From NCBI GenBank assembly GCA_031213475.1, contig JARUPZ010000012.1:8693727-8757726 (forward strand): DNA of 64,000 bases, read 5' to 3'. Of the stretch, positions 760-63,480 are shown in pieces. The first letter of the stretch is position 1. The number at the start of each line of letters is the position of its first letter. The DNA comes from Nereocystis luetkeana. Its lineage: Eukaryota > Sar > Phaeophyceae > Laminariales > Laminariaceae. The translations under genes were made by a program, and so were the position numbers. Below the pieces are notes generated by a model. The model ran no database searches and was not told where the DNA came from. It saw nothing but the letters and a program-made list of their open reading frames with translations.

Positions 760-2350
760 ACCAAAGCGTTGCATTGCCGATGTTGTGGGCAAATGGTATG
801 GAGAGTCAGCAGCAAGTTGCTAGGTGCAACCAGGTTGTGTTATTTCCTGACCTGGCGTTATTTTTTTTTATTTATCGGGCGCCCTTTTGTTTTGTTGAGT
901 TTTTTATCGTCGGTTTTTTTTTGGTTGTTCTGGATGTTGTTGCCAAAACAGGAAGGTGGCTTGAAAGCAATGTTTGGCATCGGCGGTGGTGGCGGTGACC
1001 GCGGCTGATCCTCTGACTGTGGTAGCACGAGTGGCAGCGGTGTTCCCGTTGACGAGTGCTTGTAGCGCTGTTCGTCGTCGATTGCGCAGAGCGAGGGAGC
1101 GCTCCCAGCTCGCGGAATAGTTCTGTTGTTTTGTGGCTCAGGAGGCCAAAATAATGGGGGGTGGGAGCGACGAGCGGTGCGGCTGCGGCGCGGCTGAAGG
1201 ATAAAGGGTCAAGTATGGCCGTCGATCTAATAGCGAGAGGCCGCAAAAAAGTAAAAGTTGTTTTAGACGTGGTGGTGGGCGAGTGAACAATTTGTATGTT
1301 ATCACCGCAGTGCCGCTGGCTGCTCTGCGCCCGCCGAGCGGTGACGCGGTGCCATACCTCCCCCCATTGCCCCCCCCCCCCCCCCCCCCTCCCTGCCTCC
1401 CTCCCTCCCTCCCCTTGGTAGTAGCAGCGCAACTCTGGTTTTTCTCCCACCTTTGTTTTACTATTTTTGAGGCGTCTAAAGAACCTTATTCGGTAGACAG
1501 TGCGTCGTCTCGTCCGTTTTTCCTCTTCATCTTTCTTACGAGTCCCAGACTTTCGATGCGGCGGGTGTTGAATTGCCGTGTCGGGGTCAACAAACTGTGT
1601 TCGAGTGGAGGCTAAGCGTGCAGATCCCACGAATGGTTCAAGTGGTGTTCGATATGGGCGGGGAGGGAGGGGGGTGACAGTAAGCGTAGTGCGAAGAAAG
1701 TATGTTTCATGTGGGTGTCTTTAGCGTTTGAGTGCTGTAGAGTTTCGCGGTAAATGATAGGCTTGGCTGTGGTGGACTCTGACCACTCGCGCACAGCCCA
1801 AACGGTTTCGCGCGTGCGTCGCGTGCCATTTATTGGCTGACCGTAGAAGATGGGTTTCCAGAAACCATCGACAGGCGTTTTTAGCTTCTGTATGTTGTTT
1901 TGCGTATTGCCGGCTTATCTGGTGTTGCAGTGCTCGGTAGTGTCGATTTTTCGGGGTGGGAGGGTGGGGGTGGGGTAGGGCTTCAGGAATTCGTGGTGTG
2001 CGGAAAAAGAAACGCTTTATTTATGTCGAGCGCACGGGGAGAGGGCGGGGGGGGAAGTGCGGATCGTCTTGTTGTGCAGCCCAGAAATATATACCTGGTA
2101 AGGTGGTACTCGTAGCACTTACTTTGATATCATGCATGGTCAAGGAGGTGCTGCATGCTCGGACTCGTTCGCTCCACGAGACCGTCGCTTTCTGTGGATG
2201 GAGTGAAAGTTGAAGTTTGGATATTTTTGTCGTGCCCAGCCAGCACTTGAGCTTAAGTTATTGCTAATGTCGCCTCAGTGACCTGTGACACCTTCATGCT
2301 GTCTTTGAGGTTAGACATCGTTAGGATTTTGTTTTTGTTTTGTTTTGTTT
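462..2350 (+). other. UTR-like / intergenic DNA with long C and G runs
   Basis: No convincing gene. The stretch is T-rich on the + strand, as expected of a long 3' UTR after the 3-461 exon. It contains a G run at 487-504, a run of 33 C at 724-756 and a C run near 1373-1389. Open frames here are proline- or phenylalanine-rich translations of those tracts. I cannot place the polyadenylation site. Confidence 0.4.
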
Positions 2351-2357
2351 TGCGTCT

Positions 2358-2458
2358 TGACCCTTTCAGGACCGCAGTCCCGTTTTGGGGACAAACCACT
2401 CAAATTTCAAGTGGTTTGTCCCCTCAGCCGGACTGCGCTCCTACTGTAAAGGGGTTAA
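2358..2458. mobile_element. Palindromic MITE, family 2 (copy 1)
   Basis: About 100 bp, nearly a perfect inverted repeat. The left arm reads CCCTTTCAGGACCGCAGTCC, then a TTTGGGGACAAACCACT core, and the complement returns on the right and ends in GGGGTTAA. The ends AACCCTTTTAG...CTAAAAGGGGTT are shared with eight other copies in this window. There is no coding capacity; it would fold into one long hairpin. The transposase family that moved it is not identifiable from the termini. Confidence 0.8.
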
Positions 2459-3237
2459 TCGTCCTCGTAGATTGGATTAGATTGGATCAATTCGGAACGG
2501 TTGCCTCGCGTGCCATGGCGGGGTGAATGAAATGGACGTCGTCGTTGTAGTAGTGGTTTGTGGTGGTGGTGTTGGTGGTGGCTCGTCCATATAGCTACTG
2601 CTGCTGCGCCAACGAGCGGTGATATATCCCGTATAATTCCATGTTATTTACCTTTTTTTTTTTTTTCGTCACGAGCTGATAAAGTGCAAACCAACGGATG
2701 GCCCATGTATATATATGCTGTGTCATACCGTGCTGTCATGTACAGCTAGCTATATCATGATGTGCAGCTGCAATGCGAGTGTTTTCTCTGTGTGCGTATG
2801 GTGTAATCATTTACATCTACGATATGCTGTGCAGTGCGAGTGTTTTCTCCGCTATGTCACCCAGGGTGTCGTCAAATGTACAGCTAGCTGTGATACGCAG
2901 CTGCCCTGCGAGTGTCTCCTCTGAAACAGGATCGTGGCCGGTGCGAAAACCCGAGGGTTCTATCACGTGTTTTGCGTGCGTGTCTTGTGTTCTTTTCCGA
3001 GACCCCGAGAAAGCGAGAACATCCATGATTTGTTCTGTGCTACAGCAGCTATCAACCGTCTACGAGCAGCGCTCACGCCCAGCAGTACCACGCGTAGTTG
3101 TACCATGTTGGGCCCGTTCCGTACGACTGGCTCCTCAATTGAAAAGCAACACCGGGACAACAATGTCGATCCTCCCATCATCCCCCAATCGCGCAGTTGC
3201 AGTTGCCGTTGCTGCAGTCGCCACTCCGGTACGCCCA
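2459..3237. other. No gene recognised
   Basis: Mixed-composition DNA with short GT-rich microsatellite-like stretches near 2540-2580. The ORFs overlap on both strands with no recognisable motif. Confidence 0.4.
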
Positions 3238-4168: not shown

Positions 4169-4265
4169 TTACGGGGGGCCATAGTTAACAGGACCAAATA
4201 CTGTTAGTAAAAAGGGTTAAACATATACCTGGTAGGTTTTTATGTGTCCCATAGGCCCTGTTAAC
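4169..4265 (+). mobile_element. TA-type MITE, family 1 (copy a, right end missing)
   Basis: Left terminal inverted repeat TTACGGGGGGCCATAGTTAA followed by the family body. The element stops at GCCCTGTTAAC, where a SINE begins, so the right terminus is lost. Relative to copies b and c it carries an extra CCTGGTA in the body, at 4226-4234. Confidence 0.85.
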
Positions 4266-4614
4266 TTTTTTTAGTTTTATTTTTCTCATCCCATTCATTA
4301 TCTTCGCACATCTTCTTCTCTCTCCTTCCAACTCGTAACTCAGATCCGGGGTCACATAGCAGGCTCTTCTCCACCCTTCCCGCTACGTACGGTACGTGCC
4401 TTCAATTTTATCGCGAGAAGATTTCAGCCTTTTCTTCCCTCGTCGACTCGCATCGAATTGTGCTTACCCACGCTGCAAGGCGCTCTCAACAATTGAATCC
4501 TTTTTTATTTTTGCAAATAAAGTCAAAGTCCGACCCACCTGGGGCTCGAACCCAGGAGGACTCAAACAAAAGTAGAATTCGATGTTAACCACTTGAACCA
4601 CCGGGGCCGACCGG
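4266..4614 (-). mobile_element. tRNA-derived SINE, family S1 (copy 1)
   Basis: On the - strand it begins with a tRNA-like head: A-box-like TGGTTCAAGTGGTTAAC and B-box-like GGGTTCGAGCCCC. The body holds GAGAGCGCCTTGCAGCGTGG and GTGACCCCGGATCTGAG, and it ends in an A-rich tail (the T-rich tract near 4266-4285 on the + strand). This head/body/tail order is that of a pol III-transcribed SINE moved by a partner LINE. It lies between two family-1 MITEs. Confidence 0.85.
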
Positions 4615-4615
4615 C

Positions 4616-4734: not shown

Positions 4735-5226
4735 GCCTGTTTCGAAGGGAGGGATATTGATTGGTTGTTCCTCGACCCTCTGTGATGGTATATTCATGAC
4801 CTCTTCTCTGGTACTACTAATTAATGTATGATATCCACAACAAGGCTGTGCTGGTGGAATGAAAGCCCCTCGTATCGCTGTCAGCCATCTCGTGCCACAC
4901 AGGTATGTACGGTGTATGTCTTTCATTAAAAAAAAACGCTTGTTGCGTGGTCACCTTCTTCGTCTTCAACGATGAACTCTTTTTTCAAGCCCACATTGCA
5001 TTATTATTATACTTTTGCCATCGGATTCCGACAATGTGTACGTAGCGTTGTTCTAAAAAAGACCAAGGAACAGATCGTGAAGAACTCTGCCCATGTTGTA
5101 TGTGATACACATGTCATACACCCCATGTTTGTACATGGACAATACTGGCATGTACCTGGTACTACATGTCAGACCGCGGTCTCCCCGATATCCTATTATG
5201 TTCGTAGACTAGTGGTTAACACCGGA

Positions 5227-5228
<2 letters not shown>

Positions 5229-5264
<36 letters not shown>

Positions 5265-5509: not shown

Positions 5510-5510
5510 T

Positions 5511-5672: not shown

Positions 5673-5785
5673 CTACGGGGAGCCATATTAAATACCTGGT
5701 AGGACCTGCGGTACACACAACACCTAAATATCTCTGTATTTTTACCCACAATATTTGGTCCTATTTACTATGGTCCCCCGTAATA
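5673..5785. mobile_element. TA-type MITE, family 1 (copy d, divergent)
   Basis: The left end is degenerate (TACGGGGAGCCATATTAAATA) and the right end is TACTATGGTCCCCCGTAATA. At 5693-5701 it carries CCTGGTA between AAATA and GGACCT; copy m at 53651 has AAATAGGACCT uninterrupted. Confidence 0.85.
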
Positions 5786-6267
5786 ATGTACTACCAAATA
5801 GCCAGCGTATGAGCGCCAGGGGTGGAATCCCGGCGGGTTCCCAAAAAGACATGACGAAAAGTGACGTCTATACTCGTACGTCTGCAGCCAGTACGTGCCC
5901 TTTTCTCGTCGCAGAAAGCCCGAGAGCGTGAGGAAGGGACCCCGAAATAATACCGACCCAAAACCAAAAAGATACTAATACTAGTACTTGCGTGTTGACA
6001 GTAACTGTAGTTATCAGCCGCCTACGATGTGGCGTGAGAGTGCCTACCTTGCATTACTCGTCGTGCTGCGCACGTGCCGAGAGCACGCAACTCCTTTGCA
6101 TTGTAACTCGGACGCCAATTCTTATATAATTCATGTGAAATCATTCCCCAGTCAGTCACGCATCGGCGGGTACTGTGCTTACTACGCGTACCTGGTATTT
6201 TGTAATCGCTACCTGGTACCGTACTTTTTACGCTCATGTTCCCCCTTTGAACGTCTCAAGAGGGTTA
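5786..6267. other. No gene recognised
   Basis: Mixed sequence. It contains two TACCTGGTA words (6189 and 6210) and no supported coding region. Confidence 0.35.
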
Positions 6268-6808: not shown

Positions 6809-8647
6809 AGGCTGCGATGAGTGAAACCCTCTGTGAAGATAAACATGAAGGCAAGTACCGCGGCGCGGGGGAGGGGCTGTGGGGGAGCGGGGGGAGGAGA
6901 CGCCTGTGACCACACACGGGTTATCCAAAAGAGTTCTGTATAAAAGTAAAACTATTAATAATAATAGTAAAAGTGCGAACGATGTTGAAAAAAAAAATGA
7001 AGAAACAAAAAACAGCGCGGCGGTATATAGAAGCGATACATACATGCTCATTATTAGGTACATACATACATGGTACATACATGGGACATGGGACCGGCGG
7101 TAGTACCGACGCACACATATTTCAAGCGCTAAACGCCATACTTCCAAACACTTGAGGCCATACCTTCTTCATACATTTCCCCCTGCATTATTCATCATTC
7201 ATTATTAACCAATAGTTAATGTAATAATACCTGGTACGTCATGTATAACATGCATGAATGAACTACTACTACTGTATTACATACATCGAATCGGCGGTAT
7301 AGTCTCGACCTATTCTGCGAACAGTAACATGTTTTACATTACATTCATTCTTGGAAGCACGAGGTATATATATATGTATGTGCATTGTTATAAATTCCGT
7401 CGGGCTTCATCCACACCCAATGCCATCCTTTTGCTTTCATAAGCACAGTCTTTGTTTATAAAGGACGCCTATTATAATGCATCGCTACATACATGCGTTC
7501 ATGCCGCCATTTGTTTCGTCGATTTTCGGAATCGACCCTCCTCGCGATAAGTTCCCCCCGGCTTGAGCTTAGAAAGTGTGAGAAAAACGTTGATATTCAT
7601 ACAAGCGTTGGACGGCAGAAAAAACATGTCCATACTCACGTACGTACATAGATTATACCAGGTACCTGGTACGAGCTAAAAAAACACCGCAAGTAATGGT
7701 GCCGGAAACAGGTTACGAAGCTTGGTAAAACGCGGGCTGGAATTATTCTCTCTGTGGGTCTAGCAAGTACAATTTGTGAGATAGATGCATACTACACCCA
7801 CTACTCCCATTTTCAACATCCACCACCCGCACCACTATTGATTGTTTGTTTGTTTGCTCAAACACAACACACATGCCTCATTTCCTTGGTGGCTCGCACG
7901 TTAAACACGTAGTATACTCTGATGATGACACTCCAGCTTGTTGCGGTGGTAGTGTTCCATTCTCTGATGATGATTTTGACAAGGGATTCGCATTTCTTTT
8001 CAGGATTGACGATGAGGACCTTTAGCCTTAATATACTCCAAGCCCTAACTACCTTGCACATATTTCCATGGAATAATATACCGGGTACGTACGCACATGC
8101 AGAGAACAGGCAGGACACACCCGCTATTCCGATAACTGGTCCACAGGTATAGGTAGAGGGAGAACACGAGCCCAACGTATCGCATGCACTACTACAGAAG
8201 TATACATCGAATATGATATCGCAAACAGTACGTAAAACCTATGCGTTCTTCGTAACACACACCGAGCGTGAGCGCTCCATCCAAAGAAGATACGAATACT
8301 TCGAGAAGTACTCCCCTTATCCCCTAGCCGGTCACGCCTTTTACGTAGCATTTACGATTCAAGGATGGATATATATTTCATATTTTCACTCAGACGACGC
8401 GCTCTACGATAATAGAGGTAGAGCACATTCCGGCTAAACTGTTTTCTGAGTGACAGAGTTATTCCTTAGCCCAAAATCGTCAGGATGTCAATCTTGTCTC
8501 GAAAAATGACGTTTTTGTATACTTGGACCATGGGATTACTCATCGCGATGCAATTTGATTCTTGCTGAATGAAGTCAGTTTTCGGGTAGAAGAGGTATGG
8601 CGCTCCTATAGTGAGGAGCCTCAGAAAAATTAGGGTGAACCTCTATC
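6809..8647. other. No gene recognised
   Basis: About 1.8 kb of AT-rich sequence with ATACAT/GTACAT microsatellite-like patches near 7040-7090 and paired TACCAGGTA/TACCTGGTA words at 7656-7671. No ORF has a recognisable domain. Confidence 0.35.
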
Positions 8648-12546: not shown

Positions 12547-13056
12547 GGGGTGTACTCGATATGATGCATGGCCGTAGTCGTTTGACCATAGATCCTTGCA
12601 TCCCTACGATGCCAGGACGGAGCGCGTCGGGGTTTTCACCGATCAGGCAGACGTTGCTTGCACCAAGCGCGAAGCGCCCTGAGGTGTTCGGCGAATCGCA
12701 TGGAGGGTGAGCCGCATCCTAATAAGAAACATTTGTGAGGCGGACTTGCATATGGGTGACAGCTTCAACAAGATGATTTATTCTCCGGTGTGGCCACTTC
12801 CAGAGACAGGAGCGGGGGTACTATGTAACGATCTCTTTGGTGCCATACCATAAACACTACCTGGTACGTGATACGATCACTCCCCTTGCGCGGAGTAAAG
12901 GTTCCTCCACCCCGCACAAATTATCTATCTCGATCGCCAGCTGCGACCGACCTCCAGAAAAAATAGCGGCCCCCTGGTTGCCTAGCTCACGTAGTGAGTG
13001 TCATGCTTTACTGTGTCGTTGCCGACCGAAGCCAACCAACCTAGACGGCGACCAAT
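12547..13056 (+). repeat. Dispersed repeat family D (copy 1, full length)
   Basis: About 510 bp, preceded by a run of ten G. It opens with TGTACTCGATATGATGCATG, then TTTTCACCGATCAGGCAGAC, CCAAGCGCGAAGCGCC and GAGGCGGACTTGCATATGG, and ends near CCAACCTAGAC. Full copies recur at 17685, 19839 and 21989. It has no coding potential; it could be an LTR-like or SINE-like unit, but its ends do not settle the class. At 12858-12866 it carries the TACCTGGTA insertion, which the copy at 18005 lacks. The LINE remnant begins immediately after it. Confidence 0.75.
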
Positions 13057-19838: not shown

Positions 19839-20362
19839 GTGTACTCGATAGGAGAGATGTACTCGATCTCATGCATGGCCGTAGTCGTATGCCCATAGAC
19901 CCTTGCATTCCTACAATGCCGGAACGGAGCATGTCGGGTTTTCACCGACCAGGCAGACATTGCTTGCACCAAGCGCGAAGCGCCGTGAGGTGTCCGGCGA
20001 GTCGCATGAAGGGTGAGCTGCATCCTACTATGAACCGCTTGTGAGGCGGACTTGCATATGGATGACAGCTTCAACGAGTTAATTTAATTTCCGGTGTAGG
20101 CACTTCCAGAGACAGCAATGGGAGTACTATGTAACTGCCTCTTGGGTGCCTTACCTTGAACACTACCAGTACGTGATACGGTCAATTCCCTTGTGCGGAG
20201 TAAAGGTTCTCTACCTCGCACAAATGATCTAACTCGACAACCAGCTGTGGGCGACCGCCAAAAGAAAAACAAAAAAAACGGTACCCTGTTTGCCTAGCTC
20301 ACGGAGTGAGCGGCATGTTTTACAGTGTCGTTGCCAACCGACGCCAACCCAACCTATATAAA
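19839..20362 (+). repeat. Dispersed repeat family D (copy 5, full length)
   Basis: TGTACTCGATAGGAGAGATG start; ends CCAACCCAACCTATATAAAA followed by ten G. At 20162 it has CACTACCAGTACGTG, a 6-bp insertion (CCAGTA) at the site where copy 1 has CCTGGTA and copy 3 has nothing. Confidence 0.8.
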
Positions 20363-22510: not shown

Positions 22511-23756
22511 CGAAGTATATATACATACCAGGTACAAGGGGCTACGCCGGCGGCCTGATCGGCCACCGGTCGCAGACTTGCGTGGTGGGCGTATAATGTA
22601 GAGGAGGAGGAGGCTGAGACTCGATGCCAAGAGATCGAGAGCGTGCCCTCCACACTCCATGAACGTTGGAAAAGGCGGCAGAATGCCGACGATTACGTGC
22701 CAAGTAGCCGAAAAGCGGCAGAATGCTAGAAGGCGGTGCAACTAACTCCTAACTCAGGGAGTACGCGATGACCGGCAACACAGCTCCGCAGAAAGGTGCC
22801 GTCACAGCAGCTGCTGTGGCAGCAATGCTGTAGCTGTACATCTCCGAAGCCACGTAGTACAGCTCCACTGCAGCTGCCGCTGTACGATAGAGTACAAAAC
22901 AAAAGTGCTGCTGGCCGTCATAAGTGCTGCTAGCTGTAGCTGACATGCGATCTCAGATAGGGCATACATTTTCATGGATGGCAGTTATCAACCACGCATG
23001 TGTAGCATGTGCTATCGGGGCGTTCCATCGATGTCCCAGACACAGCCACCCGCCCAGGCCCCCACAATGGCAACCCCGGCCGGGTAGCTGACCCTCCCCA
23101 TTGGTCGGAGGTCGGACAGGACGTACCGGAAAAAACCACGCGAAGGCATACACCCTGTCGAGAGACCATGAGCAAAAACACTGACAGGGCAGGGATTTCC
23201 GGGGATTCCTTCGTAGATCTCAACGCCAAGGCTTCGCGCGGGCGCTGCGGCGCGGAACGGGCGGACCCTCCGACACCGGACGGGACAGGCGTGGAGGGGG
23301 CACGCCCCGGCGAAGAAACCGCGCCGAAAGACGGTCAGAGGTGGGAGAGATCCGCCGACCAAAAACGGATCGGATCAGGCCGAGGATCATCATAGGTATA
23401 TTTATCATTTAACTTTGGCGGTGCTGCGGTAGGAGGTCGCTTGTCTATAAGCAAAAAGGAAATCTGCCATTCAACGCCACTCGATCGAGTGACTACTCTA
23501 TGAAATTGAAGTTATTGATTGCGTGCCCTTTTGCCTCCGTCATGTGCACCGCCCTGGGAACGTTTGTTACGTTGCGACAACAAAGTATGTAGTTGTGTCT
23601 GTCCCATTTTGAGCGAGGCACCGAACCACTCGCCCGAGTGGCCTCAACGCGGCGGGGAAAAGGTGTGTGGGGGGTAGCCTCTCCGCCGTCGCACGGGCGT
23701 GCACTTCAAGTGCATCGCAGTCACAGACGACGCGGAGCTGTTGGTGGTCACGCTCG
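22511..23756. other. No gene assigned; GC-rich open frame at 23009-23395
   Basis: A hydrophilic + strand frame ends at 23395 (Arg/Gly/Asp/Glu-rich, with DRAGISGDSFVDL near the middle) and resembles a gag or linker segment, but I recognise no domain. A - strand frame overlaps it completely. Nothing else stands out. Confidence 0.3.
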
Positions 23757-26999: not shown

Positions 27000-27600
27000 A
27001 GATTGGGTAGGCGATTGGTTAACCCTATACCAGTAGCCCAACGGACTAAGACCTCAACAAATGGCGTCGACGGCAGGACATGGGTCGTTGGTCGTGAGTT
27101 CGAATCTCACGTCCACCATGAAATGCTCCTTGAAGAAAAGTGAAGTTAAAAAAATGTCAGGAATCTGATAAAACCCTCTTCCTGGATCCCCAAAGATTGT
27201 GAAGTACTGAGGACTAGGAAGACCAACGACCCCGCTGTTCCCGAGTGTTTTAAGGCTTAGAGTGGGTAGGCGATTGGCTAACCTTTTACCAGTAGCCCAG
27301 CGGACTAGACCTTACCCAGTTGCTAAGGTCTTAGTCCGTTGGGCTACTGGTAGAAAGGTTAATCAATCGCCTACCCAATCTAAGCCTTGTAACACTCCCC
27401 ACCCCTTCGTATAGGGCCGTACGTGCCTACCAGGTAGTCCTCAGTTCTTAACTGTCTTTGGGGACCCCGGAAGAGTGTGTTACCAGATTCTTGAAATGAG
27501 GAAATTCCCTCTGCTTCAAAAAGCGATGGTGGACGTGAGATTCGAACTCACGACCAACGACCCATGTTTTGCCGGTGACGCCATTTGTTTAATGTGAGGC
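27000..27600. repeat. tRNA-like inverted-repeat cluster
   Basis: 27007-27050 (GGGTAGGCGATTGGTTAACC, CAGTAGCCCAACGGACTAAG) recurs directly at 27259-27312 and inverted at 27317-27387. The segment 27056-27118, which contains a perfect T-arm (GTGAG-TTCGAAT-CTCAC, a B-box) and an upstream A-box-like TAGCCCAACGGAC, recurs inverted at 27520-27590. The 5' acceptor strand complementary to GTCCACC is missing, so I treat it as a tRNA-derived repeat and not as a working tRNA gene. Confidence 0.65.
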
Positions 27601-32777: not shown

Positions 32778-32898
32778 ATTTCTATACGCATCAAACCAGG
32801 TATATACTATTAATATATATTATATATACATACGACGTATCTACGAGCTGTAATTTCGTCATTTCGTGACGTCAGAATGCATAACGTCACTCCTCAAC

Positions 32899-33061: not shown

Positions 33062-33084
33062 CTCCTCAACGCCATCCTAATCTG

Positions 33085-33455
33085 TACCGGCACCCCGGGT
33101 ATTGTGCCGAGGGTATACCCTTACCCCGGGTATTGTGCCGAAGGTCTTACAGAACCTCCAGAAGTTCCGGGTACGGGTATGGATGTCTAAGAGAACTTTT
33201 ACGAAAGTTCCGGGTACGGGTATAAAACCCTTACAGAACTCGAAAGTTCCGGGTATTGTGGCACGGGCGTACAGAACTCACAGAATCTCCGGGCAGGTAC
33301 AAAAACGCCGTACCGGTACCCCGGGTATTGTGAAACGGGGCGTACAGAACTTACAGAAGTTCCGGGTACGGGATTGAAGGTCAAACATAACTTACAGAAG
33401 TTCCGGGTACGGGTATAAATGTCTTACAGAACTTACAGAAGTAAGTTATCTGTAG
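33085..33455. repeat. Satellite F (second array)
   Basis: Same AGAACTTACAGAAGTTCCGG units and GGTACCCCGGGTATTGTG spacers as 27990-28605. Confidence 0.85.
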
Positions 33456-34823
33456 GGTATTTCCCGGGTAAATACCCCGGGTATGGTTCTGCAGGGTACC
33501 CACAGAACCAAACCTTGCAAAATCTGCACACCCTGGACAATACCTGGTACACAACAGTCCAATAGTCTATTAATAGCTTCCTATTGCAATTGACTCTATA
33601 TTGTGGTCGCTAATTCCAATTAATTGAAAGGCATCGAGCTCTGTTATCCAGGCAATTTCTATTGAATGACCCCAAACTGGCCCTATTGTCCAGACATCTC
33701 CATTTCACGGGCAGTCGCCGTAATCAATGGTCCGGACAATTCCAATTAATGGACCTTCTCCTATATAAATTGTGCATCCAATTCCAATTGACAGACCGTC
33801 TGCTGAACCAATTGTCCCGACAATTCCAATTGACGGACGGCCCCCCGAATCAGTTGTCCGGACAATTTCAATGAATAGACACTGCCGCCAAACCTATTTG
33901 TCCCGACAATTCCAATTAAAAGGCAGTCTCCCAGATCAATTGCCCCGGCAATTCCAATTTATGCACAGCCTCCAATATCAATTGTCTGGACAACTTCAAC
34001 TAGCAGACTGCCTTCTAAATCAATTGTCCGGGCAATTCCAATTAGTAGACAGTATACAAAATCAATTATCCGGACAATTTCGACTTCTTTCCAAATCACT
34101 CCTTCAGACAATGCCATTGGTAGGCAGTCTCCTGACTCAATTACCCGTATATTTCGGATTATTTTGTTCCGTGAAACGTTTTTTTAATGATTTATATCTG
34201 AGCACATGGGCTAGGCGGTATCAAAACGTCCTACTTGCGGATTTAAAGTACAAAGCTAAAGTTGAGGTGTCCCGCCCTTTTCTGCTTATGCCTTGGGCAA
34301 TAGACCTATCAATAGACTATTGCCCCTACAGCAGAGTCACGAAGTTGTCTATTCATTGGAATTGTTCGGGTGATGTCAAAGACTGCCTAGCAATTGAAGT
34401 TGTTTAGACAAAATAGATCTTGGATACTGTCTATCAATTGGATTTATTCGGATAATTGATATCGGGTACCTGGTACTGTCTAGCAATTGGAATTATCTTG
34501 ACAAAAAATATTGGAAACTCTCAATCAATCGAAATTGCCCAGAAAATTGGTTTCAGAGAGTGTCCATTAATTGGAATTGTCTGAACAATTAATTGATGTT
34601 TGGTGTTTTTCAATAATTGGAATTGTCCAGACAAACGAGGTCGGAGAGGATTGATTGAAATTGTATGGGCAAATGATCTCATAGGCTGTCTACTAATTGA
34701 AATTGCTTAAGCAATTGATCTTGGTTGATTTACATGAATTGGACTTGTCGGGGCAACTGCTTTCAGAGACCGTCCATTAATTGGAATTGTCCGGACTATT
34801 GGTTCCGGAAGTGATCTACTATT

Positions 34824-37639: not shown

Positions 37640-38265
37640 ATGGACGTTGAGATCCATATCAGATCAGACCTATGTTGATGTGCAGTCACCTCACAAGAGC
37701 TTACTAAGTATCTTATGATAGATGCGGAGAAATACGGTATGCGGCGAGACTTGAGTTTGCTCTTTCTTGCCGACGCACTGTATTCAACTTACCTCTATCA
37801 TACTGATCGTAATGCAGGGTAGCTAGCTTACCACCATAAGTATCAGGTAACCATGGTAATGTTACATACCAGGTACCTACCTGGTAGAACGTTACGAGTA
37901 CGCTACATAGAACGTTGCAGGGGCATTGCTAGGAACGGCGGTTCAGGGAACGTTGACGGGCTGCTGTAGAATACACCTGCCCGTAGCATGGGCATTTTGT
38001 CTCGTGAGCAGGTGATGGCGTGCCCCACCTCGATCACTCCACTTTCTGTCCTCTCCACTCTCTGCCCTCTCCACTCTCCTCTCTCTCCACTCCTCCATCA
38101 CTCCTTCTCCTTTCCTCTTCTCTCTTGATCTCTGAGATCAAGATCCCTTATAAAATGCCAATTTCAAACCATCTTCTTTCTTCATCACAAGTGATCTTCA
38201 CGGACACTTCGGTGCCACCTCAGCCATCTCTCTTCCCAGACACAGAGCCTCGACACATGCGTTAT
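37640..38265. mobile_element. Insertion 1 in element B (unclassified)
   Basis: Absent at the matching place in element A (near 30330). No recognisable protein; contains a CTCTCCACT-rich patch at 38037-38100. Boundaries are set by loss of alignment to A and are good to about 10 bp. Confidence 0.6.
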
Positions 38266-39345: not shown

Positions 39346-40130
39346 AAATTGTGACGTGCCCACACTGCTGTATGTATGTATTTATGTGTGTACTCGTGCA
39401 GGCGGCGTATATATCTGCTACCTGGTACTATACTTGTACGTACGTATTGTGTAAAAGCTACACTACAGGCAGGTACAAATAACAGCACACTACGTACGTA
39501 GTAAACAGCACAAACAGTAGGCAGTACAACGTACCAGGTATGGAACAGAGGTTTACCGTGCCTGGTACCATACCAGGTATGAAACAAATATCGACTTTGC
39601 TTCTGATTCGCACAACACGGAGGACACACCTACTAGCTACAGCCACCTTTACTTCCCGTAAGTTTGACCATGTGACTGGATACGAGTGAGAGAGTGAGTG
39701 TGTGTGGCTGTATGTCTAAAACTATCTCAAAACTATTCGATGCAAGAAATGACGGGTAGCCCCTGGTTTGCTGTATGTTCAGTGCCGTCGTCTCTGCAAA
39801 GATGGATGTACGGGGAGACGGCCCTCTTCCCACATGACACAGCAACAGAGCAATCCGTACGAGTAACAACAGCATTGTGGGGATGGAGATGCCTACGTAT
39901 AATACGTACCCTGTACAATAGTTCAGGCCTGCAACGAACGTCGGTGTGTATACAGCAGTACGTGTACCAGTTTTATAGTCTCGGCGACTCGTCTTGTCCG
40001 TTGCCTCGTCAGTCGTTGCTTGTTGCCACTCTGTCTTTTTTTTGACAGTTTCAGATTTGAAGATTTTCATTGCTGTTTTTTTATTTTTTGCTTGATTCCG
40101 ATTGGCTGTCCAGATCACAGGTTCCAGTTA
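39346..40130. other. No gene recognised (upstream of the bHLH gene)
   Basis: Rich in TACCAGGTA words (39419, 39532, 39571) and ACGTACGTA. It may include the promoter of the gene at 40410, but I see no unambiguous element. Confidence 0.35.
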
Positions 40131-41390: not shown

Positions 41391-41717
41391 AGGACCAATT
41401 TGTCTTGAAAGAAGATTAGCGAGCGGCACGAACTAAAAGAGAAATGCACTCGACGACCTTCCACCAAGTACCAGACCCCTGCTCGCCCACGCCCACGACT
41501 AGAGCTGTAGATGGTCTCCTTCGTTTCTATCTCGACCCTTTCCAGCCCACCAGGTACCTGGTATGTCCTTCCAGTTCAACCAACACCCAACGCACACCGG
41601 CAAGCAAACTGCAGCTTCGGTGTTGCACTCTTTTTTTTTTTTTCTTTTTTATCACTTTTACTTTCCATTACGAGTACGAGTATAAAACTCGTATTAATAA
41701 TACCAGGTATTTATTAA

Positions 41718-42408: not shown

Positions 42409-42507
42409 TAACCCCTTTAGAACCGCAGTCCCGTTTGGGGACAAAACTACTTGAAATTTGACTGGTTTGTCCCCAGAACGGGACTGCGGTTCTAAAAGGG
42501 TATTATG
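42409..42507. mobile_element. Palindromic MITE, family 2 (copy 3)
   Basis: AACCCCTTTAGAACCGCAGT and ACTGCGGTTCTAAAAGGGT. The two arms pair almost perfectly around AAACTACTTGAAATTTGACT. Confidence 0.85.
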
Positions 42508-42714
42508 TTTCTGCTTTAGGACGAGAAGGAGGAACGCAGAAGCTTCTCGAGTACGTACTCACAACACTCGGACCTGGTACATGATAATACAACATACCGG
42601 TCCGACATTTAATATCACTGGGCCCATACGGAGATTTTGCGGCGTAATAACGTGTGCTGTTTTGCGATTTTTTTATCAAGATAAAATAGACCCCGTTTTT
42701 TTACATACCAAGGA

Positions 42715-43364
42715 GGTCTACAAGCAGAAGCTGCTGGACGATACCATCGTCGTTACCATGGTCACCACAGCTCTGTTCCTGCTGTTTCGGCGGGCTGCCA
42801 CCTGCGTCGTGAAGGTAACGATAGCGATTTTGCCGTCGAAGGCCTGGTTTTCTGCCGTGTTTCTGCGTGGGCGCGCAACGGCTGCAAGGTGCATGACCTT
42901 TATGTGAGATTTGTGTTGGAACTTGTGCACGGGTGCTTCTTCGCCATCTGCGAGGTACAGTAGTACACCTCTCCCTGCTTCTTCACAGAAAACCATTTTT
43001 CGTCTACCATGCATACGTTGTCCATAGTATTAATAGCAAACCTGCGCGAGCCACCAGGGCCCGAGCGGATCCAGGACAGCGCCCACTGCGGCCTCCGGGT
43101 CTCGCCTGCATCTGTGAGCAACGGTCTCAGGAACCTCTTTGACGCATGAATACCAATCTTGTCGAGGTTTCTCTCTCGAACCTGCTGAGAGATGCCCAAC
43201 TCAGCAGCAACAGCCCTCTGAGTTGTTCGATTCTTCAGCGGAACTTCGCGAAGAGCCTCGTTTAGCTTCGCAAAATCGACGGGTTTCCGCCCAGAGTTTC
43301 CGAAGCGCTTGTTGCGGCAGGTCGACGTTCGAGACACCATCAGACACCTGCAGCCATGACGCAT
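42715..43364 (-). pseudogene. Tc1/mariner (plant MLE-like) transposase pseudogene
   Basis: The - strand protein from 43364 shows an N-terminal helix-turn-helix region (RTTQRAVAAELGIS), LRPLLTDAGETRRPQWALSW, then VCMVDEKWFSVKKQG with the first catalytic Asp of the DDE/D triad (42975-43010). A frameshift near 42905 leads to KVMHLAAVARPRRNTAENQA and FDGKIAIVTF. This order (HTH, V-D-E-K-W-F, K-V-M-x-L-x-A-V-A-R-P, F-D-G-K-I) is that of plant-type mariner transposases. The second and third catalytic Asp are missing. A TATTAATA word lies inside the coding sequence at 43028-43035. A peptide TKEVYKQKLLDDTI, expected just downstream in this family, is encoded on the opposite strand at 42707-42750, suggesting a small inversion at the CCATGG palindrome near 42760. 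Confidence 0.85.
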
Positions 43365-43570
43365 CGTTACCTCGATAGCCCTACGAATCTATCCCCCATC
43401 CCTTCTTTTCGAACTCGCCAACGATTCAACGCTTCCCCACCAACCCCAGATTTCCTTCTTTCAATCCTCCATGTTGTGCGTTGGTAGTGCAGTGCCATCA
43501 GAAGTGTCATCGGATTTGTCGCGACCTTCAAAATCGAATACGTTCCTGGTACGAGTATGTACCATTATTA

Positions 43571-43665
43571 TCCCTTATAGGACCCCAGTCCCGTTTTGGG
43601 GACAAACTATGTATAATTTTATGTCCTTTGTCCCCACATTTGGGACTGCGGTGCTAAAATGGTTC
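43571..43665. mobile_element. Palindromic MITE, family 2 (copy 4)
   Basis: CCCTTATAGGACCCCAGTCC to GGACTGCGGTGCTAAAATGG; more diverged than copy 3. Confidence 0.78.
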
Positions 43666-44140
43666 ATATTAATAGTATCAACATAATATTAATATTGCGT
43701 GGTATTAATAGGGCTGTACGTACGTAAGGATACCGCAAAATCACCACGAACGCCGAATCGCGAATCACCACCGGCACCGGCAGTCGTGCAGCTACTAAAC
43801 CGTTGATCGCTCTGCAAGAGCGTGCCTGAAGCGCTGTGTTGGTGTCTTATCTCCACACCTCGACAGTTTAGATCTGCAGATCATTTACCTCTCCTCACCT
43901 GCCGTTGTCAGAGGATGTCCCGGATCTGAACTACAGATCCAACCCAGCAGGGAACATGTCCTAAATCGTGCAGATCCTAAATCGTGCAGATTTACGTCTC
44001 CCACCCGCCAGCAACATGACCTACGAGTACAGTTAGTACGTACCAGGTACGATCATGCAGACCAGGAATCTATCTGCCTTAAAAAATCTAGATGGTCAAG
44101 TGGAATCACTGATCCGTCCGAGGTGTGGTATCTTTATTTT

Positions 44141-44237: not shown

Positions 44238-44566
44238 AGGCAGCAAACGGCACGCAAAAAAGGACCCTTTAGGCAGCTCTAAAATACGCCATTAGTCTGG
44301 AACTCCCAAAAGCAGAGAAAAGGGGATACCATTGAACCTGCCCCCCGCTGGGTATGTTTCACAGGTCGGATAACGTAAAACTCGGGGATATATATATATA
44401 TGTATATCTGTGTGTAGTTCTATGGACCGGGGCATCGCCGATCAACCCACATATTTATGTTTTGGGGCCTAACACAGCGGCTTGGCAACGTTCTAACATT
44501 GTGTTCGCAGTGGAAGGGCAGTCGCGTGACGTCGCAGGGTAGTGTTGAGTGCATACCAGGTATTGG

Positions 44567-44684
44567 TATTACGGGAGACCATAGTTGATAGGACCAAATA
44601 TTGTTAGTAAAAACGGTCAAATATATACCAGGTATAGGTTTTTATTTATACTATAGGTCCTATTAACTATGGCCCCCCGTAATA
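44567..44684. mobile_element. TA-type MITE, family 1 (copy k)
   Basis: TATTACGGGAGACCATAGTT and CTATGGCCCCCCGTAATA. At 44626-44634 the body has AAATATACCAGGTATAGG, where copy p has AAATATATAGG: a 7-bp gain. Confidence 0.9.
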
Positions 44685-45326
44685 GTGCACATCCACGAGC
44701 GTTGTAACGCGTTAACGTTATGTTACCTCTCGATCGGCGGCTCGGGTGCGGTAACATGGTGTTGCGCCGTGATCGGTACGTGTACAAACATCGTAACACA
44801 GTCGGTGGTAGGATTTGCGCAGGCTCGTACGTTATCAACCTATTGCATAGATCAGTACCGGCCGATTCCGCGGAGTTGCCAACACAATGTTGTTGTTGTT
44901 GTTGTTCTCACATTAACTCACAATACAATGCAGTCCGTGGTCGCAGGAAAGGCTCCAATAACTCTGGAGTGGAAGAGATACCCCGGTAAAAAAAAAAAAA
45001 AAAACTGTACCTGGTACGAGGCTGTGGGCGTAATGCCCTATTAATAACATTGTCTTAGAGTTCAGGGTGACGTTAGAGGCATAACGCTTCAACATAAGGT
45101 TAGTATTCATCGTGATTATCGTGTTACCCACCACGATAACGTTATGTTGATCGAACGTTGCTGGAGTCCCCCGTGTTCTTCCTTATTAGAGTCGGATAAC
45201 GTAGCAGCACTCACCATAAGTTAGGTAAGTTTGACCTTCGGTCGTGATGTAACACTAATAGTTAGAATGTGACGTAAATGGCGAGAGGTGCCATGTTACT
45301 CGCTATGAAGATCTCACTGTAGCCTT
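44685..45326. other. Intron 1 DNA without recognised gene; repeat I at 44894-44998
   Basis: Repeat I is (GTT)n followed by CTCACATTAACTCACAATAC and GGCTCCAATAACTCTGGAGT; it recurs at 51456-51556 in intron 2. Confidence 0.45.
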
Positions 45327-46116: not shown

Positions 46117-47767
46117 TACGTGACTATGTTGCCATCATGTTGCCTTCAATGACGACCTGGACGTAACATTTCGTTACTACGTGACAGTCAGACCTGAGAT
46201 GACTACTTTGCGATTTTACCGTTTGGGGCTTCCCGGGATCTTCGCTCAAAGCGGAGTTTCTGAGTAACGTAGTGCCAGGTGACTGGTATCCGTTATTAAC
46301 TGGAGTTCAATAGACCGTCTCGTACGCGGGGACACATACAACACCCCCCCGAGAGGGGAGGTTGAGATAGCATCCCCGAAAAAACGCCTCCTTTTTTTTC
46401 AACCTCAGCAACAGGGAATATGTAGGAAGCATCCCCGAAAGAAACGCCTGAAACAAATATGAAGCTCCACCATTACGTCATCCATCTATAACGTGTCACA
46501 ACTCACGTGCGGATCTAAGACAGCAGTAACATAATGTAATGTTCATGTTAGATTGGGGATATCCGTTAGCTGCTACCAGTATTAATTATACTCGTGTTAT
46601 CAATAGCACCAGGTATCTATTTTGCATACGAGCTGTACGAGCTTCGTATTAATATTGCTGCGATGATTTGTCGTTATGTACGTTATTTACCTAACGTGTG
46701 TTACGATGCAATTGTCGTTTCCGCTAAGATCCTAACGTCACGTTACTCTGTACGAGCTACCTGGTATAGACTACTTTTACCTGGGAGTTACGTATGAGGA
46801 TGTAGTGTGGTAACGTACTTACTAACACTGCTTTGTTACCCCAAAACCTAGAAATCGGATAAGGCATTAATAGATACCAGGGTACCAGGTAGTACCGTAA
46901 TGTTCTAAAAATCGTATACCCTAATACGTACCTGGTACGAGCTTAAAGTAACACATTGACGTTGTGTTACTTCTTGTTGCTGTAGTGTTCTATAGGTCAT
47001 GTTCATTTACGTTATTTTCCCAACGTTTTACGATGCAATTATAGTGTCTTCTGACATCCCAACGTTATGTCACTCGCTACAAGCTACGGACTTGACACAG
47101 TACACTACCAGGTAATTTTTTGTTATTAAATAATCTAGCTATTATTATCTCGATAACATCGCCCGCCGATAGCGTGACGTGCTATTGTAACACTGCTGTC
47201 TTGCCTCAATATCTAGAAATCAGATAAATTAGTAACGCTATGTTGAAAAAAAACGCCGAACCCTTAACATGGATGTGGAACGATAAGTGTTATTATATCC
47301 GAGGTGGGGTATGTTTATATATTTATGGAGAGGCCGCCGCTGTGCTCCTGCTGCTGCTGCCTCAGGTCACACAGCCCAGACATACCGTGTGAGCTCTGCT
47401 GGCGTGCAGAGCAAATTGCTTTCGGTGATGCCGCAATAGCACCAATTGAGCGCGCACGCGCCACCATGCCTGGCAAACCTATATGGGCGCTACTCGCAGC
47501 CTTGGAAGGAAACCCTGAGAAGAACGCCTCAACACCCTGTTCTGAACTCCCTTTTCTGAAAGAGCGCCCCTGAAGTTGACGGCACTGTAGTTTTCAAAAC
47601 TTGTTGCACAGGTGGGCGGCGGTTACTACAGTTGCACTACCCCACGAGTCGTACAAGTACATGCGCTTCGTACACCCTCGCCCTCTCTAATCATGACCAT
47701 CTCCGCCCCCCCCGCCTTCACGCCCATCCACGCCCCTCCACGCCGGCACCGGGTTGCTCCGTAATAG
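46117..47767. other. Remainder of intron 1, no gene recognised
   Basis: Scattered TACCTGGTA words (46758, 46883, 46929, 47106). The frame at 47304-47573 lacks recognisable features and splice context. Confidence 0.4.
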
Positions 47768-49054: not shown

Positions 49055-49235
49055 GCTGCTGTGTGTTTGTTTTCACATTAAGCCGGTATTTCTACCCGTC
49101 GACACCCAGCAGTATCTGTGCCGATTCATCCTATTGGGATACAAACTCCGTGGCCACAAAAACTTCGACACAGCAGAGACACTGCATTGTTGTGCAGTAC
49201 CTGGTACGCAAAGTTGACAATACATTGCCATCCCA
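49055..49235 (+). repeat. Intron-2 repeat J (copy 1)
   Basis: TTTCTACCCGTCGACACCCA, GTGCCGATTCATCC, CGTGGCCACAAAAACTTCGA; four copies, all in intron 2. Confidence 0.7.
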
Positions 49236-49361: not shown

Positions 49362-49478
49362 GGTAAATAGGACCAAATACTGGTATTGTTATCAATAGCA
49401 AAAATAGGGAACTACCTGGTATATAGGCGTTTCTGCGTATCTTACCGTAGGTCCTATTTAATATGGCCCCCCGTATTA
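49362..49478. mobile_element. TA-type MITE, family 1 (copy l, left end lost)
   Basis: Starts at TAAATAGGACCAAATA and ends TTTAATATGGCCCCCCGTAT. Two insertion-like words: CTGGTA after AAATA (about 49379) and CCTGGTA at 49413-49421, at different TAs of the body. Confidence 0.82.
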
Positions 49479-50692: not shown

Positions 50693-50865
50693 ACAGAGAC
50701 ACTACGTTGCCACGTAGGCAGTAAGCACAGCAGTAGACAGCAGCGCACTACATACACATGCTCTAAACTGTGAAATACCTGGTAGAGAAGTAGTACTGGA
50801 TGTCGACGAGTAGCAAGAACGGTTTCATGTGAAGGACACACACACAGACAAGAGACAGACGCATG

Positions 50866-53135: not shown

Positions 53136-53279
53136 GTCTACAAAAAAATGAAATACAAAACACGTCAGGGATCGCGAATTTTTTCATCAACGTATCTCAG
53201 AATCTGCTATTACCAGGTATTAATAGTGTTGTAGTGTGCGAGTCTACACTTGTAGACATATATAGTGTAATACACTCCG

Positions 53280-53757: not shown

Positions 53758-53845
53758 TTTATACCAGGTAGTGTATAACTATTAAATATTATACCTGGTG
53801 TGTTTGCACCGTCGTCCCGGTGGTATGGTGGTCAACCTCGAAAAC

Positions 53846-54065: not shown

Positions 54066-54245
54066 AACAGATGTCGGGAGACAGGACTTTCATCCCTCGA
54101 CAGACAGCGGCTTTGCCTTGACATGCCGTGACTGACACCAAAATACTATAATACCAGGTAGGTTTTAGCCTGGAACACTTCGGCCCTATATACACCCTTT
54201 ACAGCGCATGTTTTTCCTTGCTTGACATGCCTCCCGACATCTTTG
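54066..54245. mobile_element. MULE-type MITE, family E (copy 4) with 9-bp TSD
   Basis: Ends AACAGATGTCGGGAGACAGG and TGCCTCCCGACATCTTTG; flanked by GCTGAGAGC at 54057-54065 and 54246-54254. At 54152 it carries TACCAGGTA before GGTTTTAG, where copies 1 and 3 have a plain TTA or CTA. Confidence 0.87.
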
Positions 54246-54647
54246 GCTGAGAGCGCATAGCGTGGGTTTAGGCGCGTTTTCGACGCGAGTGGACGAGCGA
54301 ATAGCCTGGAACACTTCGGCCCTATATACACCCTTCACAGCGCATGTTTTTCCTTGCTTGACATGCCTCCCGACATCTTTGGCTGAGAGCGCATAGCGTG
54401 GGTTTAGGCGCGTTTTCGACGCGAGTGGACGAGCGAAAAAAAGTGCTGCACCCTTTTCGCGAAAAAAATGCCTTCCAAGGCAAGAAGTGTCGTGGGGTGG
54501 AGGGAGGAGAGCCTACTGGGTGACCCCGGATCTGAGTTAGGAAATAGGAAGGAGAGGGGCGAAGAGAAGAAATGGGACGGGAAATACCAGATACTGCTGT
54601 ACCAGGTACATGTTTGGCATACCAGGTATAATACCAGGTACTTACTT

Positions 54648-56537: not shown

Positions 56538-56646
56538 TATTACGGGGGACCATAGTTAATAGGACCAAATATTGTTAGTAAAAATTGTTAAATATATAGG
56601 TTTTTATCTATACCATAGGTCCTATTAACTATGGTCCCCCGTAATA
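56538..56646. mobile_element. TA-type MITE, family 1 (copy p)
   Basis: TATTACGGGGGACCATAGTT and CTATGGTCCCCCGTAATA; body AAATATATAGGTTTTTATC, the unfilled counterpart of copy k. Confidence 0.92.
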
Positions 56647-56871
56647 CTGCTCCTGTACTTTCTCACCACGTACGTACGTGCGGTACGATTATATTTTTTT
56701 CATATTAATAGTGCTTTCCTGCCTTTTTTCTGTTGACGCTGCTGTTAATCGTAATACCAGGTAACAATTACTGCTGTTCCCAACACTTGGAAATCGCATC
56801 GTAGCCGTGAGTAGTGCAGCATCCTTTTTGCTACAGCCGTACCAGGCATATAGCAATTGTTTTAACCCTTC

Positions 56872-60689: not shown

Positions 60690-60835
60690 TTACCCGGGTA
60701 TCCGGGTATTTTACCGGGTATCCGGGTATTTTACCGGGTATCCGGGTATTTTCCCGGGTATCCGGGTTTTTTCCCGGGTAATATCCCGGGTATCCGGGTA
60801 TCTACCCGGTTATCACGAATATGACCAGGTTTCAG
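60690..60835. repeat. Tandem CCGGGTATTTTACCGGGTAT repeat
   Basis: Five to six units of about 24 bp (CCGGGTAT-CCGGGTATTTTA) followed by degenerate CCCGGGTA units. The units are partly palindromic. Confidence 0.8.
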
Positions 60836-62609
60836 TACCCGGGTACCCCAGAGTACGTAAGCCTACTAAACACACCCTTTGTGGGTGTTGAGAGAGGAGG
60901 GAGGCACCACGGCGAGGATTTTGTGAGTGCTGACGAGAGCAGGCCCCACGATGATGTAGGAATTATTTTTGGGGGAGCGCTGAGACGGGAGGCTGGCCCC
61001 CATATCACGAGGAGGGGCTGGGTACCATCGTGTTTTCGAGAGACAGCATGCATGCCCCACGATCGGAACTGTTGTTGTTTGTCTGTTGCCACGGAGCATG
61101 CATGCATGCGTGCGTTCTTGCATGCCCGTGCAGGTTAGATCATTAGTTATACAAGGTGAGGGTGTTTGATTGATGGAGATGATGATGAGCCGACCGACTT
61201 GAATTCGAGCGAGATATAGACAGTCGCTTTATATGGCCGCCGCAAGATGGTGGTGTGGTGTGGTGGAGGTAATAATGGTGGTGTTGTTCGCCGTTGGTGG
61301 CACGTCCTTCCGCTGCGTGTCGGACGCTACCTGGAAATCCGGGGATGCCCCCAAGATGTCCCCGGGGGATGTGCTCAGGATGTCCCCTGTCGATCACGTA
61401 CCGCTTTTTTGGCGTCACCTTTTTTTAGAGAGCTAGCTGGGGCGGTCTTGATCCTATGAAGCAGTGGTGGTGCTGCTGATCGGCGGTTGCTCGGAATTGT
61501 CGCTGATGAACGCGTGCTTGTTTGTCCCTCGCGGAATTCGCAGAGCTTTTTTTGCTTCGTTAAGCGGACTGACCCCGACGTGTGACCTTAACTGGGGCAA
61601 CAGCTTATTATTTTGCATTATTAAAAGAATGAAGATAAACTAATATACACGTGGACATGATAATATTATGGAAAAACTCGGCTGTTTGTTGAACAGCTGT
61701 ATGTATGCTCGTGTACACCGTACGTATGTATGCGCCTCCCCCCCCCCCCCCTCACCCCTTGTAGGAATCGATCTCTGTAGGTTTTGGCCTGGGCAGGAAA
61801 GAGGGGGCGGGCAAGGGGGTGAAAAACGCAACGTATAGTGAGTCGCGATCAGGATGATAGTAAGAAATAGCAATAATAACATTTTTTGCGCCTTGTTTGG
61901 TTTAGCTTTTAGCTATTCATCCACGACAGGCTCGTGCAAGGCTCTCCAACAGCTTGGGAGCATGATACATGCAAGGCCCTCCAACAACTTGGGAGTCGTA
62001 TGATAAATGTTTCTAACCACTCCCGAGTATGTTTTCGGGTTGTTCGAGTTACGGCCTTTGGACCGTGCGGCTTGGATTGGGCTTTTTGGTTGAGCCTACG
62101 GGAAGGTTGCACGTATATCAGCAGCACAACACGAACGACGTGACGTTGTGTAGCGCTTACATATTGCATGGGTATCCCTTTGCACTACTACTAATAATGC
62201 AAAAAAATCCCAGTCTAATTCCAAAAGTAAGTTTGTACCCAAATCGTGCGTGGGTGCTGTTCCAAAGAGAGGGGTTATAACAACTCACGTTATAATCGAG
62301 CGTGATGGGAAAAAAAAATCCCAGGCAGGCAGTATTTACGAGTACTTCAAGTATGTGATGGATAGTTGAACTTGGGTTTTTAATTGTTTTTTTCCAAAAT
62401 AATGCATACCAGGTACCTGGTACTCCATACAACAGTAGTCGTACCGAGTTCGATCGATCGATTGGTCGGTGAGAAGATTTCGTATTAATAGTGGGCCTCT
62501 CCGCAAGCTGCGTTATTCGTTGCATCGTTGTTTGTGAGCTGGGACACATCATGAGAGGCGTTCCTCTACGGGATGTCTTCTGTCAGCTCGCGCGTGTTCT
62601 GCTGTTTGG

Positions 62610-62647
<38 letters not shown>

Positions 62648-63480
62648 GCTGTTGTGTTGGGAGATACTTCTGAGGAGACTTGATCGACTCCACCGCGCAC
62701 CACGACACGAAAAAAAAAAAGCAAAACAAAAAGGAAGCAGCCCGTTGTTGTCCGACGGGACTATATCACTCTGTGGGCGTTTCCCCCCACACGATCAATG
62801 CTTTTGCCTCGTATTAATAGTAGTAGCAGTGGTTGAGAGTATACCTGGTATAAAAATACGTGCGTATGCGGCGAGATGCAATGTATGTACGTACGTACAT
62901 GAACATCGTCCCAGGTATGTAGTATGTGCTGATTCGGCGGCGAGCAGATACGACTACAAAAATAGCATCATCAACTGTCAAATATATATATATACCAGGT
63001 ATATATTATATTGTTTGTCTTCTGGATTTATTGATTGATTTTGGCCAAGTTGATTTTTTCTCGTGCTGCGTTTTCTCAGCTTATTATGGTTGTTGTGTTC
63101 GTCGGTCGCCCACTCTGCAGGATATACCCCCCTATTTCGCCAAGCCCGGTCTCCGACTGCAGGGAAGCATTATCACGATAGTTTTTGCGTAAATGTAGTA
63201 TATTATGGCTCGATCGCCTGACAAATATCATCGGTCTCGACCGATTATCAGCATGCCGAGCAGTGTAGAGTGTGCGACTAACTTCTGATACTCCGACAGT
63301 CTGCCCGCTGGCGGCCTCCCGAGCTCTCGAGCACACGACAACACAGCAGCAGCGCGCATCATCATGTATGTTGGGGCTTGCACCCACCGATCGATTCCGT
63401 GCGTCAGCCATTCATTATCGAGACTACCGGGTCCACATTATAGCTTGACGCGGATATGGTCTACCGTTACATTGTAAAAG
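60836..63480. other. No gene recognised; (GTT)n at 62606-62650
   Basis: Intergenic-looking. TACCAGGTA words at 62407, 62414, 62842 and 62993. A + strand frame ending at 63192 opens after a CTGCAG that could be an acceptor, but I recognise no domain. Confidence 0.35.

Follow-up and report, generated by a model that had tools for sequence, protein, structure and literature searches.

Why should one nine-base word, TACCWGGTA, recur every few kilobases in the DNA of a brown alga? The window analysed here is a 64-kb stretch of contig C12 of Nereocystis luetkeana (positions 8,693,727-8,757,726; the assembly has 465 Mb in 1987 contigs). It holds exactly 44 copies of the word, 22 with A and 22 with T at the centre. 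The chance expectation for both words together is 0.46-0.64 under Markov models of orders 1-3, in keeping with the initial annotation, which had listed the same 44 words against about 0.5 expected. Models of orders 5 and 6 expect 10 and 30 because they are fed by TACCWGGTA itself. We argue, at a probability of about 0.85, that the word is a scar left behind by the excision of a cut-and-paste DDE transposon for which TA is the duplicated insertion target.

The word is abundant elsewhere in the genome as well. Density was estimated from the window and 25 stretches of 10 kb each (L127-L151), placed at round coordinates on 21 larger contigs. The 20 stretches on C1-C16 carry 76 words and the five further ones on C20-C28 carry 10. 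This amounts to 86 words in 250 kb outside the window, or about one scar per 2.9 kb, and extrapolates to a genome total of about 160,000. TACCWGGTA is about twice as frequent in the window as in the 200-kb sample, where it is the most frequent 9-mer aside from simple repeats. Over the full 314 kb there are 130 words against 3.05 expected, with a centre A:T ratio of 60:70, and roughly one TA site in 100 is scarred (76 words for 10,609 TA in the 20 stretches, 44 for 3622 in the window). Some words do lie in Miniature Inverted-repeat Transposable Elements (MITEs) or AT-rich DNA, as would be the case if chance, low complexity or the spread of a few word-carrying repeats had produced them. This explanation is refuted by the count of words with distinct flanks (127 of the 130, and 41 of the 44 in the window, are left once sites with similar flanks are removed), and we give it practically no weight. 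Cutting of the EcoRII/Dcm type at CCWGG was rejected by reasoning because the duplication would then comprise CCWGG and lack TA. Among the titles listed by searches of open-licence papers, none deals with a scar density of this order. The literal TACCWGGTA strings, one or both, stand in 217 such papers; the 20 titles listed concern other subjects, and the matches were taken as primers or barcodes. A scan of IMG/VR for two close words returned at least 120 stretches, by estimate about chance level.

The word was gained at TA sites. For this comparison the word was collapsed to TA and its flanks were aligned to other copies of the same repeat. In a strict version covering 264 kb, 118 of 120 words were testable and 10 lay in an alignable repeat. 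Word-free copies are the majority for nine of these ten words, as against 25 of 167 other TA-N5-TA words; of six such control cases shown, two are an ACT microsatellite and three overlap real cases. Three of the nine gains are weak: L136:1862 lies in AT-rich DNA, the copy compared with L137:9581 reads GA, and 49198 has a single 77% copy. The nearest word-free copies mostly hold plain TA, and more distant ones often hold CA or other letters. The empty place reads TA in 18 of 20 ungapped copies at 4226, 12 of 20 at 5693, 5 of 6 at 12858 and 3 of 11 at 34467. Seven paired cases had been proposed from the window, and those at 4226, 5693, 12858, 33541 and 34467 are clean 7-bp insertions at TA relative to one or more copies. 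The other two are not clean. The repeat at 44626 exceeds most copies by 9 bp and exceeds one copy, which has a longer TA run, by 5 bp, so that 7 bp is not resolved there; the one at 54152 exceeds its best copy by 12 bp. Both 6-bp cases held up, with three empty copies for 20164 and a 6-bp gap against two MITE copies for 49378. Further support came from sequence-blind mining of 3-14 bp indels, in which a 7-bp rotation of ACCAGGT at five unrelated loci is the most recurrent insertion. The same mining returned a rotation of TATTAA at three loci, a 6-bp indel at five places that represents one shared context, and recurring 4-bp words that are AT-rich or simple. The many near-identical inverted arms of a large foldback at 30816-34798 are told apart by the scars at 33541 and 34467.

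The scars also share a target. Around the 33 isolated words of the window, with both flanks read outward, 34 of 66 flanks have T at +6 and 53 of 66 have A or T at +7; neither value was reached when TA sites were sampled 20,000 times. Few flanks have A at +1 (4 of 66; 38 of 20,000 samples). Another TA lies 7 bp from the word 24 times against 6.2 expected and 14 bp away 16 times against 7.3, with no excess at 21 bp. The 20 other stretches show the same preference (0 of 5000 samples), and in the last five (50 kb, 20 flanks) A or T at +7 reaches 0.85. A symmetric preference at a distance is the trace expected from an insertion enzyme.

The rarer variants point to the ends of the element. Three other forms between TAs are in excess and carry the scar target preference: CCGG (14 against 4.7 expected; 0 of 4000 samples), CCAG/CTGG (29 against 13.8; 0 of 4000) and CCAGGG/CCCTGG (11 against 0.8; 1 of 4000). 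The mirror forms CCTG/CAGG (12 against 10.0) and CCTGGG/CCCAGG (2 against 0.55) show neither enrichment nor preference in 314 kb. All forms with the preference consist of at most four letters of CCAG followed by at most four letters of CTGG, and those for which one end would have to supply five letters occur rarely or not at all. This one-orientation spectrum argues for rejoined breaks of an element TA-CCAG...CTGG-TA and not for CCTGG...CCAGG ends. The CCAGG/CCTGG ends with a 5-nt stagger that were first suggested are therefore not required, and the candidate donor described below reads CCAGT...ACTGG. No full TA-CCAGG...CCTGG-TA element with inverted ends turned up in 264 or 314 kb under the length limits and thresholds applied; the repeat TACCAGGYGGATT (3 copies) has no inverted partner. 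It is unlikely that the same scar mechanism acted on a different, unseen element whose ends are truly CCAGG...CCTGG and whose overhang is 5 nt long, although this is the strongest of the competing explanations. A CCAGG overhang self-pairs at four of its five bases and would also lead to CCWGG as the dominant scar, which with 130 words far outnumbers each of the minor forms (31, 16 and 11). In addition, TACCAGGGGTA with its complement, which needs five letters of CCAGG, occurs twice against 0.29 expected. On the other side, the fully filled form CCAGGCCTGG has no occurrence, and no element with such ends is present in the DNA searched, whereas a complete CCAG...CTGG element exists.

In the excision mechanism that we favour, the element TA-CCAG...CTGG-TA would leave and each broken end would keep TA and a few element nucleotides. 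Two 4-nt CCAG overhangs could then pair through CAG/CAG, giving C-G, an A-A mismatch and G-C. Repair of the mismatch to A or T about equally would yield CCAGG or CCTGG, and pairing or trimming in other registers would yield the rarer CCGG, CCAG/CTGG and CCAGGG/CCCTGG. We infer this overhang length and polarity, and many single jumps over a long time.

Footprints of a related kind have been described. According to PMC3878927, Sleeping Beauty and Frog Prince leave C(A/T)GTA (table 1), and a 3' overhang of 2 or 3 bp is described. Common to these footprints and the scars are the TA target and its duplication, a short remnant and an A/T-ambiguous centre, and the CAG/CAG pairing proposed here is like that of Sleeping Beauty. 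The scars differ in two extra bases (CCWGG, a 7-bp gain), in belonging to another element family and in their extrapolated number of about 160,000. Tc1/mariner elements generally also leave an end-joining remnant of a few nucleotides between two TAs. Their footprint range is given as 2-4 bp in PMC7913693, and the scars between TAs are dominantly 5 nt with minor classes of 4 and 6 nt. Pairing of 4-nt CCAG overhangs in a shifted register could still account for the dominant product. Ectocarpus, likewise a brown alga with Mariner-Tc1 elements, has 17 such families and almost 12,000 copies, most of them non-autonomous (PMC12477816); the words footprint and excision do not occur in the main text of that paper. 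The available parts of PMC13236599 and PMC7318753 contain nothing on scars.

The donor is probably the family of a complete element found elsewhere in the genome, a link that we hold with less assurance than the scar itself. The window carries a relic transposase piece, whose relatives combine DUF7769 with an adjoining Tc3-type helix-turn-helix (HTH) domain. When the genome was searched for DUF7769, 32 candidates were scored and 19 places emerged, of which four were read (L152-L155). L153:1188-3207 is a complete TA-flanked element, CCAGT...ACTGG, with ends TACCAGTCCGACATTT and a 492-amino-acid open frame. It has terminal inverted repeats, as is characteristic of Tc1/mariner elements; they lie at 1188-1220 and 3175-3207 (TACCAGTCCGACATTTTATATAGGACCGATCCG) and are 33 nt long and 97% identical. 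The TA duplication characteristic of the same group is seen in the TA of the nearest word-free copies and on both sides of the scars and of L153. L154 has a 468-amino-acid frame that is 63% identical to L153. HTH_Tnp_Tc3_2 scores 32.1 bits in L154 (cut-off 31.5), 23.8 in L153 and 26.1 in L152. L153 reads MVDEKWF, QQDNAPAH and NSPDTNILDLGFFNS; by a count made by eye on an alignment, 39 residues separate its second aspartate from the third. L154 has the QQDNAPAH and NSPDTNILDLGFFNS blocks and MVDEKWF as well. These motifs presumably place the family near the DD39D plant-type mariner-like transposases, from which it differs by the N-terminal DUF7769 and the brown-algal host. L152 and L155 have no such end pair. 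A CCAGT pair in L152 was rejected as element ends because it lies inside a 395-nt inverted duplication (99%; L152:1121-2409) in this DUF7769 transposase locus, and an inverted pair in L154 was rejected as its two ends because CTTTTGG comes after its right arm in place of GG-TA. Several inverted repeat copies of the GAACCGCAGTCCCGTTTTGGGGAC type surround the transposase relic of the window (42411-43662), and others occur in L134 and L135.

A second class of scars matches a resident element. TATTAATA occurs 76 times in 314 kb against 7.2 expected, about tenfold, and in 7 of 11 alignable cases most copies lack it; for two of these seven gains the copies read CA or CT, and one gain lies in AT-rich DNA. 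An abundant MITE of the genome, here called the TATT-ACGGGGG MITE, sits at [TA]TTACGGGGG...CCCCCGTAA[TA], and two letters of each of its ends between TAs give TATTAATA. The targets are similar too: MITE ends reading TATT (34 of 49) have G, T and A at +1 to +3 in 0.65, 0.62 and 0.47 of flanks, and TATTAATA scars in 0.51, 0.56 and 0.57. TATTAATA thus fits a scar of the TATT-ACGGGGG MITE, with 2 nt of each end at the same target. The match serves as a check on the scar reading and suggests that TA elements in this genome leave two-ended scars at their own target. The longer forms TATTTAATA/TATTAAATA (14 against 2.9) also fit this MITE. Two additional words are in excess over the window and L127-L151, TACGAGTA/TACTCGTA (57 against 12.5) and TACAGTA/TACTGTA (117 against 45, with G at +1 in 0.53 of flanks). 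They have few paired gains and are possible further scar classes. With the gain at TA, the target preference, the end-joining variants and the TATTAATA class that matches a resident MITE, the original suggestion of a footprint left by a TA-duplicating element is well sustained.

The scars seem to be inherited and old enough to decay. There are 103 one-mismatch neighbours of TACCWGGTA that differ at one of the eight outer positions, where 51 are expected; some of this excess could have arisen as variants when the scars were formed. The 314 kb also contain six nested scars, which suggests a second hit on a scar that inherited DNA already carried. Both observations argue against removal anew in each generation. 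Programmed removal in each generation or tissue, comparable to that of the internal eliminated sequences of ciliates, would let the assembly show a cut genome and would suit the frequency of scars outside the window together with the absence of a donor element from 314 kb of unselected DNA. Given the apparent decay and the nesting, we regard it as highly improbable. A tentative picture, which we hold at somewhat less than even odds, is that a resident mariner-type family has kept jumping, rarely but steadily, over such a long time that it has left many times more scars than it has copies, and that the scars recreate the preferred TA-N5-TA spacing and so serve as favoured landing sites.

Several observations weigh against the excision reading or its link to L153. 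No site was seen both filled and scarred, and paired copies differ only by short stretches and include no filled site. The latter would also be expected of a direct 7-bp insertion at TA with no excised element, or of a selected palindromic binding site. Either is very unlikely in view of the variants, which join an end prefix to an end suffix in one orientation only, and of the parallel TATTAATA class with the ends and target of a resident MITE. Some enriched forms lack the target preference and are unexplained: CCSGG (TACCCGGTA/TACCGGGTA; 21 against 2.4), CCCGGG (4 against 0.3) and the short prefix-plus-suffix forms TACGTA (150 against 71) and TACCGTA (66 against 35). CTAG (10 against 4.6) shows A or T at +7 and lacks T at +6. 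A few instances of TACCAGTA/TACTGGTA are the ends of the MITE at 27028-27352 and not scars. Among the 20 flanks from the last 50 kb, T at +6 reaches only 0.35 and A at +1 is not scarce. The flanks of the few CCAG-ended elements cannot settle the preference, and L153 itself has no T at +6. The terminal sequence of L154, TACCAGTCCGACA, is found at one end only. DDE_3 (PF13358) has no match in the genome (30 candidates scored) and none in the L152, L153 and L154 frames, and the best solved-structure match has an E-value of 0.31. Given the 2-4 bp range reported in PMC7913693, a dominant 5-nt product is unusual.

Transposons normally leave exit scars of only a few bases, which disappear in noise. 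In this genome the scars are long, reveal their orientation and are abundant enough to yield a target logo, a repair spectrum and element ends without experiment. If the hopping was indeed low and steady, cut-and-paste transposition and the choices made in end joining could be read from this brown-algal genome as from a tape. Should the donor link hold, it would be possible to count and date the earlier jumps of a single family genome-wide and to compare its excision with its copy number.

Table 1. Scars, candidate donor relics and MITEs in the window (window coordinates).
Position	Strand	Feature	Sequence	Remarks
2092..2100		scar	TACCTGGTA	
4226..4234		scar	TACCTGGTA	in MITE; 13 word-free copies, 1 filled
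5153..5161		scar	TACCTGGTA	
5693..5701		scar	TACCTGGTA	in MITE; 15 word-free copies (TA or CA), 0 filled
6189..6197		scar	TACCTGGTA	
6210..6218		scar	TACCTGGTA	
7228..7236		scar	TACCTGGTA	
7656..7671		nested scar pair	TACCAGGTACCTGGTA	starts 7656, 7663
12858..12866		scar	TACCTGGTA	5 word-free copies, 0 filled
20164..20171		short scar	TACCAGTA	6-bp case; 3 empty copies
22526..22534		scar	TACCAGGTA	
27028..27352		TA-flanked MITE	CCAGTAGCCC	inverted ends (22/22); another element with CCAG ends
27428..27436		scar	TACCAGGTA	
31696..31704		scar	TACCAGGTA	
31867..31876		long scar	TACCCTGGTA	
33541..33549		scar	TACCTGGTA	7-bp gain against one foldback copy
34467..34475		scar	TACCTGGTA	7-bp gain against copy at 31208
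37867..37886		two scars	TACCAGGTACCTACCTGGTA	starts 37867, 37878
39419..39427		scar	TACCTGGTA	
39532..39540		scar	TACCAGGTA	
39571..39579		scar	TACCAGGTA	
41555..41563		scar	TACCTGGTA	
41701..41709		scar	TACCAGGTA	
42595..42610		likely donor-family relic end	[TA]CCGGTCCGACATTT	14/14 with R at base 3
42900..43364	-	relic transposase piece		154 aa; 80% identical over 121 aa to the L153 492-aa frame
44041..44049		scar	TACCAGGTA	
44554..44562		scar	TACCAGGTA	
44626..44634		scar	TACCAGGTA	in MITE; 9 bp longer than most copies
45008..45016		scar	TACCTGGTA	
46758..46766		scar	TACCTGGTA	
46875..46891		long scar joined to scar	TACCAGGGTA, TACCAGGTA	long scar 46875, scar 46883
46929..46937		scar	TACCTGGTA	
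47106..47114		scar	TACCAGGTA	
49198..49206		scar	TACCTGGTA	one 77% word-free copy
49378..49385		short scar	TACTGGTA	in MITE copy
49413..49421		scar	TACCTGGTA	same MITE copy as 49378; 3 word-free copies
50776..50784		scar	TACCTGGTA	
53211..53219		scar	TACCAGGTA	
53762..53770		scar	TACCAGGTA	
54152..54160		scar	TACCAGGTA	copy comparison not clean
54600..54608		scar	TACCAGGTA	
54620..54640		two scars	TACCAGGTA	starts 54620, 54632
56538..56646		TATT-ACGGGGG MITE copy		ends TT...AA match TATTAATA
56755..56763		scar	TACCAGGTA	
62407..62422		nested scar pair	TACCAGGTACCTGGTA	starts 62407, 62414
62842..62850		scar	TACCTGGTA	
62993..63001		scar	TACCAGGTA	

The window also contains a predicted tRNA-Lys (TTT) gene (4531-4607, minus strand) and a reverse transcriptase (36078-36938, minus strand). 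Among the 120 matches listed for the latter, ten carry a species name: one is from Scytosiphon promiscuus and nine are from Laminaria digitata, with 76-83% identity across 38-68% of the query. Because its named relatives come from these species, the window is most likely nuclear brown-algal DNA, as judged from sequence. No relatives of this reverse transcriptase were confirmed in IMG/VR, and the MITE and Tc1-end patterns had no match there. Two contigs filed as bacterial in metagenome-assembled genomes, L121 (JALZWC010000131.1) and L122 (JALZWD010000061.1), carry the algal MITE core. L121 has one TACCWGGTA and a very long open frame. L122 has the MITE and three TACCWGGTA in 8,000 bases, and because of these three words it is probably algal contamination.

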